Source of the DNA: Candidatus Ventrimonas merdavium
Lineage (GTDB): Bacteria > Bacillota > Clostridia > Lachnospirales > Lachnospiraceae
Reading direction: 5' to 3'
Assembly: GCA_018715565.1 (NCBI GenBank)
Contig: DVLJ01000120.1
Span: forward strand, 1 to 48,904
Length of the DNA stretch: 48,904 bases
Position 1 is the first letter of the stretch. The number at the start of each line of letters is the position of its first letter. The notes under the pieces are model-generated. The model searched no databases and was not told the origin of the DNA. It worked only from the letters and a program-made list of their open reading frames with translations. Position numbers and translations under genes: made by a program. Shown here piece after piece: positions 814 through 25,856 of this stretch.

Positions 814-930
814 ATAAGTTCTTCGGGGCGGGGTGCAAGTCCCCACTGGCGGTAAAGTCCGCGACCCGCGCAAAGCGGCTGACCCGGTGCGATTCCGGGA
901 CCAACAGTATAGTCTGGATGAAAGAAGAAA
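814..930 (+). ncRNA. FMN riboswitch (RFN element)
   Basis: Conserved RFN blocks: TTCTTCGGGGCGGGGTGCAAGTCCCCACTGGCGGTAAAGTCCGCGACC...CTGACCCGGTGCGATTCCGGGACCAACAGTATAGTCTGGATGAAAGAAGA; upstream of ribU. Confidence 0.95.
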
Positions 931-997
931 TTGTGCGAAGGCTGACAGCCGGGAGGGAGTTCTTCCCGCTGACAGCGGTTTCCGACGATGACAGGGC

Positions 998-23173: not shown

Positions 23174-24211
23174 TTAGAAATTATCCGGAGTCATCTCCTT
23201 GCCGGCAAGGATCTCCTCGTAGTCCTTTAAGTTCCGCTCCAGGAGGGCCGGGGTGTCCAGCCCATAGGGGCACTTGGATGCGCACTGGCCGCAGTGGAGG
23301 CAGTCCTTGATCTTCATCATCTTCTCCTGCCCGGCGGGGGAGAGATGGGAGGCGGTGGGAGACCGGCGCAGCAGCAGAGACATGCGGGCGCAGTTGTTGA
23401 TCTCAATGCCCGCCGGACACGGCATGCAGTAGCCGCAGCCCCGGCAGAAGGTGCCGGACAGGAGCTTGCGGTCCCGGTCGATCAGCGCCTTGATCTCTCC
23501 GGTCATGGACGGCGGATCCTGGATGAAGGAGAGGAATTCCTCCAGCTCGGATAGTCTCTGGATCCCCCAGATGGGGAGCACGTTGTCAAACTGGTCCGCG
23601 TAGGCGTAGGCCGCTGCCGCGTTGGTGATCAGGCCGCCGGACAGGGACTTCATGGCGATAAAGCCCATGTCCTGCTCCCGGCAGGCCTCTACCAGAGCAA
23701 TGTCCTTCTCGTCGGCCAGGTAGCAGAAGGGGAACTGCAGGGTATCGTACAGCCCCGACTGGATGGCTTCCTGGGCCACGGACAGCCGGTGGTTCGTGAT
23801 GCCGATGAAGCGGATCTTCCCCTGCTCCCTGGCCTTTAAGGCCGCGTCGTACAGGCCGGACTCGTCCCCGGGACGGGGGCAGAACGGGGGATTGTGGAAC
23901 TGATAGATATCGATGCAGTCGGTCTTTAACAGGGATAAGCTGGTCTCCAAGTCCTTCCAGAAGCCTTCCGGGGTGGACGCCATGGTCTTGGTAGCCAGAT
24001 AGATGTGGTTCCGGACGCCGCTTAAAGCAAGGCCGATCTTCTCCTCACTGTCGGAGTAGGCCCGGGCCGTGTCGAAAAAGGTGATGCCCCCTTCATAGGC
24101 CCGCCGCAGGATGACCGCGGCCTCCTCCTTGGTCACCCGCTGGACCGGCAGGGTGCCGAAGCCGTTCTTATCCACGGTGATATGGGTTCTTCCCAGGGTT
24201 ACGTTAGACAT
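23174..24211 (-). CDS. Aldo/keto reductase with C-terminal 4Fe-4S ferredoxin-like domain
   Basis: AKR motifs (FFDTARAYSDSEEKIGLAL); CRGCGYCMPCPAGIEINNC and CLHCGQCASKCPYGLD. Confidence 0.93.
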   Translation of the reverse strand: MSNVTLGRTHITVDKNGFGTLPVQRVTKEEAAVILRRAYEGGITFFDTARAYSDSEEKIGLALSGVRNHIYLATKTMASTPEGFWKDLETSLSLLKTDCIDIYQFHNPPFCPRPGDESGLYDAALKAREQGKIRFIGITNHRLSVAQEAIQSGLYDTLQFPFCYLADEKDIALVEACREQDMGFIAMKSLSGGLITNAAAAYAYADQFDNVLPIWGIQRLSELEEFLSFIQDPPSMTGEIKALIDRDRKLLSGTFCRGCGYCMPCPAGIEINNCARMSLLLRRSPTASHLSPAGQEKMMKIKDCLHCGQCASKCPYGLDTPALLERNLKDYEEILAGKEMTPDNF

Positions 24212-24237
24212 GTGAATCGCCTCCTTTGTTCGATCTC

Positions 24238-24266: not shown

Positions 24267-24295
24267 TGCTGAGGAAAAATTCTCGAAAAAAGTGC

Positions 24296-24324
24296 TTGCA
24301 TTTTGAGTTAGTCTATGCTAATAT
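24296..24324 (+). promoter_or_regulatory. Sigma-A-like promoter with extended -10, no downstream protein gene
   Basis: TTGCAT (24296-24301), 17-bp spacer, TAATAT (24319-24324) with TG at 24316-24317. Confidence 0.65.
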
Positions 24325-24347
24325 AATTACAGGTTAGATGCCACTAA
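24308..24347. promoter_or_regulatory. Two TTAG-N6-CTAA palindromic operator-like sites
   Basis: TTAG TCTATG CTAA at 24308-24321 (overlaps spacer and -10) and TTAG ATGCCA CTAA at 24334-24347 (at predicted +1), centre spacing 26 bp. Confidence 0.6.
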
Positions 24348-24458
24348 CTTACATGTGAATATTCTATACATTTCAAACTGCGTTCGCCTGACCAGCGGAT
24401 GCAGAACTCGACTCCTATGAAAAAACAGCCGGTACTCCGCAGGTACCGGCTGTTTTTT
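24331..24458 (+). ncRNA. Candidate regulatory small RNA (~128 nt)
   Basis: Promoter upstream, hairpin TGCGTTCGC-CTGACCA-GCGGATGCA (24379-24403), single-stranded GAACTCGACTCCTATG, strong terminator; no credible ORF. Confidence 0.5.
24420..24458. terminator. Bidirectional intrinsic terminator
   Basis: Perfect 16-bp stem AAAAAACAGCCGGTAC-TCCGCAG-GTACCGGCTGTTTTTT. Confidence 0.92.
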
Positions 24459-24514
24459 CAATCCATAGGGGCCTTTTGGGTCCCATAGCTTATGCAGTTG
24501 ACAGGACGAAAGGA

Positions 24515-25447
24515 TCACTCCTTGTTCGCCATGAAGTTGGCAAAGATCGCGCCGGAGATATTGTGCCATACGCTGAATACGGCGCCGGGGATGGTTGCCA
24601 GGGGGTACTGGGCAAAGTGGGTGCCAGCCAGGGAAGTGGCCAGACCGGAGTTCTGCATGCCTACCTCGATGGCGATGGCCTTGCACTTGGACATATCCAG
24701 CTTGAGGACCTTGCCGATGACGTAGCCCAGGCCATAACCGCAGCAGTTGTGCAGGATGACTACCAGCACGATCAGCAGTCCACTGGTCATGATCTTCGCA
24801 GCGTTGGCAGATACTACTGCCGCAACGATCGCAACGATCGCGGTAACGGAGATCAGAGGCAGGATCTTCACGATCTTCTGGGTGATGTGAGAGAAGAACT
24901 TGTTGATCAAGCCGCCCAGGACGATCGGGATGATGACTACCTTTACGATGGACATGAACATCTCGACCATATTGACGTCAACGGTCTGACCGGCAAATAC
25001 GTAGGTCAGAAGGGGGGTCAGGAACGGGGCCAGGATGGTGGACACGCTGGTCATGCCCACGGATAAGGCTACGTCGCCCTTCGCTAAGTAGGTCATAACG
25101 TTGGAGGAGGTACCGCCGGGGCAGGTACCAACTAAGATCACGCCCACTGCCAGTTCTACCGGCAGATTAAAGAGCTTGGTCAGCAGGAATGCCAGCAGAG
25201 GCATAATGGTAAACTGGGAAACGCAGCCGATGATGACGTCCTTGGGACGGCTGAACACGACCTTAAAGTCGCTGGCCTTTAACGTTAAGCCCATACCGAA
25301 CATCACGATGCCCAGCAGAGTGTTGACGTAGCTGGTCTTGATGAAGCTGACCGTGTTCGGGGCGAACAGGGCCAGGGCCGCGATCACCAGTACGATGAAC
25401 GCCATGTACTTTCCTACCAGGTCACTGAGTTTTTCAAGAAATTTCAT
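24515..25447 (-). CDS. Bile acid:sodium symporter (BASS) family transporter
   Basis: MVFGMGL-type motif (GIVMFGMGLTLKASDF), GTCPGGTSSNVMTYLAKGDVALSVGMT, EVGMQNSGLA; AGGAGG RBS at the 25447 start. Confidence 0.92.
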   Translation of the reverse strand: MKFLEKLSDLVGKYMAFIVLVIAALALFAPNTVSFIKTSYVNTLLGIVMFGMGLTLKASDFKVVFSRPKDVIIGCVSQFTIMPLLAFLLTKLFNLPVELAVGVILVGTCPGGTSSNVMTYLAKGDVALSVGMTSVSTILAPFLTPLLTYVFAGQTVDVNMVEMFMSIVKVVIIPIVLGGLINKFFSHITQKIVKILPLISVTAIVAIVAAVVSANAAKIMTSGLLIVLVVILHNCCGYGLGYVIGKVLKLDMSKCKAIAIEVGMQNSGLATSLAGTHFAQYPLATIPGAVFSVWHNISGAIFANFMANKE

Positions 25448-25573
25448 AATTTGTATCCTCCTGTGATTTTCTTGAGTAAAAACGAGACAGCAAAGGCCGT
25501 GAGACAGGCAGGAGCGCGTATCCTCGCGGAGCGTGCTGGATTTCATAAGATGTGATCTCCTTAAAATCAAAAA

Positions 25574-25856
25574 GGTCCTTTGTCCCTACATTCGTAGAGA
25601 CAAAGGACCTGTATCCTCTGCGGTACCACTCTGCTTGTCACCCAAAGATGACCACTCACTCCCATCCGGCAATGGGCGACACAGTAACGGTTGTCCTCCG
25701 GTCCGGCTTACGCAGATGGCTGCGCCATCCTTCACCCAGACTGCTGATTCGGGTGATGTTCACGCCGCTTCCACTGCCATGTCCCACCAGCCCATGGCTC
25801 TCTGTAAGCTTTCGCTGCGCTACTTTTCCCAGTCATAGCATTTGGCTGTCTGATTT
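25574..25856 (-). ncRNA. T-box riboswitch leader upstream of the BASS transporter
   Basis: Reverse strand contains T-box core GACAAGCAGAGTGGTACCGCAGAGG, stem I features (AAAAGTA / GTGAACATCACCC), and terminator GGTCCTTTGTCTCTACGAATGTAGGGACAAAGGACCTTTTT. Confidence 0.92.

Follow-up and report, generated by a model that had tools for sequence, protein, structure and literature searches.

Positions 24331-24460 of the window (the whole 48,904-nucleotide stretch of DNA analyzed) carry a conserved, structured RNA that, judged by its recurrence in related genomes, is a real and new sRNA family. We consider it likely, although well short of certain, that this unit is a free-standing, trans-acting iron-sparing sRNA of about 130 nt that is repressed by a DtxR/Fur-type regulator and blocks ribosome-binding sites. 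The sRNA comprises, in order, a 5' hairpin, an unpaired segment, a second hairpin, an ACUCCU linker and a strong terminator, and the locus contains the following features, listed by position:

24296..24301, + strand: -35 element TTGCAT, read from the sequence; its TTG is kept among homologues
24308..24321, + strand: operator 1, TTAGTCTATGCTAA, which overlaps the spacer and -10; kept in homologues within the genus, degenerate in genus g321
24319..24324, + strand: extended -10 element TGC-TAATAT, read from the sequence and kept in homologues
24331..24460, + strand: predicted sRNA, ~130 nt; the start at about 24331 is inferred and the 3' end is that of the terminator
24333..24348, + strand: operator 2, GTTAGATGCCACTAAC, located at or after +1; doubles as the 5' hairpin in the RNA
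24351..24374, + strand: near-invariant unpaired 5' element ACATGTGAATATTCTATACATTTC, from alignment and structure prediction; its core TGTGAATATTCTA is kept in other genera
24378..24404, + strand: hairpin 2, 10 bp, with loop CUGACCA (consensus CUGACCC), from folding; the stem covaries
24405..24417, + strand: unpaired linker AACTCGACTCCTA with the anti-Shine-Dalgarno segment ACTCCT (24411-24416), conserved in the alignment
24418..24460, + strand: intrinsic terminator with an 18-bp stem and a 7-nt loop; the sequence varies and the structure is kept

The promoter agrees with the sequence-only reading of this DNA, which had described TTGCAT and TAATAT with an extended -10, a 17-nt spacer between them, and two TTAG-N6-CTAA palindromes; the second palindrome, TTAGATGCCACTAA (24334-24347), is positioned 26 bp from operator 1. 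No TTAGN6CTAA site besides this pair occurs in the 48.9-kb window, where shuffled sequences contain a mean of 0.12 sites and never two (0/100 shuffles). A simple promoter scan does not list the sRNA promoter, as TTGCAT/TAATAT falls under the scan threshold, but this is outweighed by the retention of the promoter, both operators and the RNA in other species, which is much stronger evidence. The promoter and both operators are kept in the genus and in most other genera, and GTTAG...CTAAC within operator 2 is invariant among 16 aligned sequences.

Folding refines the boundaries of the transcript's structural elements. The proposed 9-bp hairpin (24379-24403) and perfect 16-bp terminator (24420-24458) are both present, but their stems are longer, extending to 10 bp (24378-24404) and 18 bp (24418-24460), respectively; all 18 base pairs of the terminator, whose arms span 24418-24435 and 24443-24460, are perfect. 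The terminator is also convergent with an SBF-family gene on the - strand. Relative to shuffled sequences the sRNA unit folds with z = -7.65, and the terminator accounts for much of this score. No Rfam 15 family reaches its gathering threshold with the sRNA, the weak matches being chance hairpin hits to the terminator. With a terminator and a conserved structure, the unit fulfils what is expected of a free-standing non-coding RNA.

The sRNA was traced with a covariance model built from 16 aligned copies, which matches the window copy at 24330-24461 with 115 bits. A blastn search with positions 24270-24470 yields matches in 16 of the 24 genomes of the genus (G015 has only a weak flank match), and the covariance search recovers the sRNA in 15; the nine genomes without it indicate that it is not essential. 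Among 397 genomes of the family, the covariance search, a check proposed in the sequence-only reading, retrieves the sRNA from at least seven genomes of other genera (loci L114-L121); the carriers are G056, G069 and G383, which belong to one genus, G155, G172, G275 and G343, a range given as six or more genera. An order-wide pattern scan gave no sRNA match outside the Lachnospiraceae, and searches of plasmids with the sRNA and of viruses with its 18-nt core gave no match; in the genomes sampled, the sRNA is confined to Lachnospiraceae. The genus alignment shows little or no variation in the -35 TTG, the extended -10, the two operators, ACATGTGAATATTCTATACATTT, the GACC of the loop and ACTC.ACTCC..TG, and 10 of the 16 predicted pairs show at least one double change, with the hairpin 2 stem and the terminator varying in a compensated manner. 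The predicted anti-Shine-Dalgarno segment is present in the linker, which is invariant within the genus (ACTCC(T)); the only exceptions are one base of the window copy and two nucleotides deleted in one relative, and the GACTCC(T) core persists in other genera. Copies from those genera have an extra small hairpin ahead of hairpin 2 and retain TGTGAATATTCTA, TGACCC and the GACTCCT core. At the level of genome comparison, then, the conservation of the RNA unit, its structure and its operators is demonstrated, as is its membership of an iron-type regulon (see below). Two tandem sRNA copies about 1 kb apart are found in G001, and two copies 3.8 kb apart occur in all four matching genomes of genus g321; in the latter's copies at L135 6015-6157 and 9801-9941, operator 1 is degenerate and operator 2 is intact. 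The G383 sRNA (L120 1501-1727) contains a ~90-nt insertion, with its own repeats and hairpins, that separates hairpin 2 from the 5' element.

Genome-wide scans suggest that GTTAG-N6-CTAAC marks the operator of an iron regulon in these Lachnospiraceae, although binding has not been shown, and that the sRNA very probably belongs to this regulon. In the window's genome TTAGN6CTAA occurs in 12 places, four of which are at the DUF3793-flavodoxin operon (two sites), feoA and feoB; a half-size Fur gene, an ABC exporter and a LysR-ABC operon have one each, and one site falls inside a gene. Across nine genomes GTTAGN6CTAAC is found in 75 places as compared to 25 for the reversed control, and in the relatives' neighborhoods the genes behind it encode FeoA, FeoB, DUF3793, FecCD, AhpC, the ABC exporter and the half-size Fur. 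What would be expected of a promoter under an iron-uptake repressor is therefore met by an operator shared with feoA, feoB, flavodoxin, DUF3793 and FecCD genes, without binding data. Operators before DtxR-family genes (L181 5799 and L182 5943), as expected of a DtxR-family-controlled regulon, are also present in the lineage; genomes G069 and G343, of two genera, have a DtxR-family gene behind the operator, and that of G343 is divergent from feoB. The suggestion that such sites would accompany feoAB or a DtxR-like gene accordingly holds for feoA and feoB here and for dtxR in two relatives, but not for the genome's own dtxR, its single DtxR-family gene, which has no operator in front. Several Fur-family genes are also present in this genome; by inference, its DtxR-family protein is the most likely repressor. 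The canonical DtxR/IdeR operator is a 19-bp TTAGGTTAGSCTAACCTAA-type site. The locus sites, (G)TTAG-N6-CTAA(C), do not qualify as canonical boxes: they share the TTAG/CTAA half-sites, and in relatives such operators adjoin DtxR-family and feoB genes, but the half-site spacing of 6 is unlike that of TTAGGTTAGSCTAACCTAA, and the candidate regulator lacks an SH3 domain. The claim of dedicated DtxR-like operators is supported, with the correction that they are not the canonical box.

Two sets of regulon-associated genes are worth describing. Fur-family proteins encoded at L004 2715-2984, L166 2676-3053 and L001 515-1060 match only the first, DNA-binding half of the Fur profile, and GTTAG-N6-CTAAC lies directly upstream of two of these three genes, which suggests that the half-size Fur is autoregulated. 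DUF3793 genes (L001 3953-4573; also at L137, L138, L168, L173 and L180) are repeatedly located behind the iron operator, often together with flavodoxin, and DUF3793, whose function is unknown, is probably an iron-starvation protein.

Iron-sparing sRNAs, the functional class of RyhB, FsrA, IsrR and MrsI, are known from few Gram-positive lineages, and our searches of the open-access literature and Rfam found none described earlier from Lachnospiraceae. FsrA of Bacillus subtilis uses the FbpABC chaperones. It is a Fur-repressed iron-sparing sRNA whose C-rich motif binds the Shine-Dalgarno sequence, as stated in PMC9410917; the plan of the Lachnospiraceae sRNA is alike, but its pairing is inferred, its operator is different and no sequence relation was found (no Rfam match). 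IsrR of Staphylococcus is an iron-repressed sRNA with two repressor boxes (Fur boxes) in its promoter. Like the Lachnospiraceae sRNA, it has two promoter boxes, folds into several stem-loops, leaves C-rich stretches single-stranded, has a terminator of low conservation and is conserved within its genus (PMC9410917). However, IsrR has Fur boxes rather than TTAG-N6-CTAA, its C-rich regions consist of runs of C in place of ACUCCU, its targets are proven whereas those of the Lachnospiraceae sRNA are not, and no sequence match was found. MrsI of Mycobacterium tuberculosis, for which PMC9410917 gives predicted DtxR/IdeR-family repression and a predicted role in the iron-sparing response, is actinobacterial and under canonical IdeR control, and no sequence relation to it was found.

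A working mechanism can be proposed from these features. In iron-sufficient cells, both GTTAG-N6-CTAAC operators would be occupied by a repressor carrying its metal, for which the short DtxR-family protein is the most likely candidate and a Fur-family protein a possible one; bound across the spacer/-10 and the start site, it would block transcription. As iron falls, the sRNA would be made alongside FeoAB, flavodoxin and DUF3793, and the transcript would end at the strong terminator. Pairing with the ribosome-binding sites of selected mRNAs, for which the ACUCCU linker would be the main unpaired C/U-rich segment and the UGACC loop perhaps another, would then lower translation of the targets and thereby spare iron. 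Because ACUCCU in the linker is complementary to AGGAGU, the sRNA is most naturally read as a blocker of ribosome-binding sites, as for FsrA, and it is probably an iron-sparing antisense RNA; inference also supplies its transcription, its response to iron, the identity and metal of its repressor, the direction of regulation, the pairing mechanism and the targets. The original proposal of a metal-responsive sRNA with dedicated operators and an anti-Shine-Dalgarno segment thus gains support from conservation and the shared operator, while transcription and the iron response are unmeasured. The operator, regulon and phylogenetic range of the sRNA now permit a direct test of whether a dominant gut family exerts post-transcriptional control in response to iron.

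The targets are unproven, and predicted pairing lends only weak support to ilvD as one of them. The pattern AGGAGTTGA-N1-6-ATG occurs at few sites per genome, which in G007 include ilvD, a gene for an Fe-S enzyme. Linker pairing with ilvD leaders is stronger in those genomes of the genus that contain the sRNA than in those that do not (-11.9 vs -8.5 kcal/mol, p = 0.014), and p = 0.047 is obtained with one copy per genome and the discovery genome G007 excluded. This gain is not explained by the 16S rRNA, as 16S-tail pairing is no stronger in the sRNA-containing genomes; however, the gene was picked after the pattern match, and the genomes are not phylogenetically independent. The one linker base at which the window copy departs from the consensus (CUCGACUCC) strengthens pairing with the ilvD leader of the same genome, to -10.7 as compared to -7.9, a single case. 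A pairing test of leuC, planned beforehand, was negative, and leuC was rejected as a target.

Both the signal and the partner of the sRNA admit other explanations. The window genome's DtxR-family protein belongs to the short, MntR-like members that lack an SH3 domain. Such members have been reported to be unresponsive to Fe2+ in vivo (PMC7762939), which leaves room for manganese as the signal or for the action of another repressor. This protein type, together with AhpC among the regulon genes, would fit operators that belong to some other metal or stress regulon (e.g. manganese) and an sRNA that answers another signal, but we judge this improbable, as the main operator-linked genes, those for FeoA, FeoB, FecCD and flavodoxin, are a classic iron set. 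As to the partner, the part that is most strongly conserved is not the anti-Shine-Dalgarno linker: the 5' unpaired element ACAUGUGAAUAUUCUAUACAUUUC, absent from the sequence-only reading, is the best conserved stretch both within the genus and across genera. The conservation of this AU-rich element, whose single-stranded ACAUGUGAAUAUUCUA is near-invariant in sRNA copies, is not accounted for by anti-Shine-Dalgarno pairing, and no cause has been shown. Every 18-nt complement elsewhere in the genome has at least two mismatches, complements of the full element are limited to three weak matches, none of which spans a start codon, and a literature search for the core sequence returned no match. A protein could therefore be the main route of action, with ACAUGUGAAUAUUCUA binding an RNA chaperone or regulator that the sRNA depends on or titrates; the element's conservation, predicted unpaired state and lack of a close complement would be consistent with this, but the linker is likewise conserved, no protein partner is known, and conservation would also be expected of an AU-rich seed that pairs with many short targets, so that we regard this route as unlikely. 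Somewhat less unlikely, but still doubtful, is a Lachnospiraceae-specific iron sRNA in which ACAUGUGAAUAUUCUAUACAUUUC is essential and recognized by an unknown RNA-binding protein of anaerobic Firmicutes, the anti-Shine-Dalgarno linker being a secondary seed. The sequence ACATGTGAAT occurs at window 24208-24217 (antisense to the start of the aldo/keto reductase gene) and at 24351-24360 in the 5' element, which would allow the sRNA to pair across that start codon. This perfect 10-nt match is confined to the window and its closest relative and is absent in four other relatives, by which the 4Fe-4S aldo/keto reductase was rejected as a general target.

The favored trans-acting sRNA must also be distinguished from remnants or parts of a neighboring gene. 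The earlier alternative, that the promoter is a relic of a lost iron-uptake gene, is ruled out because the RNA body itself is what is conserved, and it covaries. It is rather improbable that the RNA is a cis-acting leader or attenuator of an iron-uptake operon that was lost in the window, leaving the leader behind. Within the genus the gene upstream is in most cases trmL (SpoU_methylase), frequently separated from the sRNA by an aldo/keto reductase gene, whereas no single gene recurs downstream, where an SBF symporter, GerA, a sensor kinase or others may lie, frequently in convergent orientation or without a related function. In the window the next downstream gene is convergent with the sRNA; moreover, the covarying stems are unlike a relic. 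In named genomes, no sRNA was found near relatives of the aldo/keto reductase. The sRNA adjoins iron-regulon genes in G172 and G275 (DUF3793) and in G343 (LysR-ABC). In G275 the downstream DUF3793-flavodoxin pair has its own operator, but in G172 (DUF3793 with a ZnuA-type ABC system) and for one G343 copy (LysR-ABC) the terminator is followed in the same direction by a metal-type operon that lacks an operator, so the RNA may play a leader role in some species. A small peptide in place of a functional RNA can practically be discounted: the window has a 21-codon open frame (GTG at 24355, MNILYISNCVRLTSGCRTRLL), but no Shine-Dalgarno sequence precedes it, indels that are not multiples of three break it among relatives, and in several genera it stops within a few codons; the peptide was rejected for the broken frames and the absent Shine-Dalgarno sequence. 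Two other regulatory RNAs are present in the window, an FMN riboswitch at 815-933 (+) and a T-box leader at 25600-25845 (-), the latter upstream of the SBF-family (bile acid symporter-like) transporter gene at 24515-25570 (-), which suggests that the substrate of this transporter is amino-acid-related.
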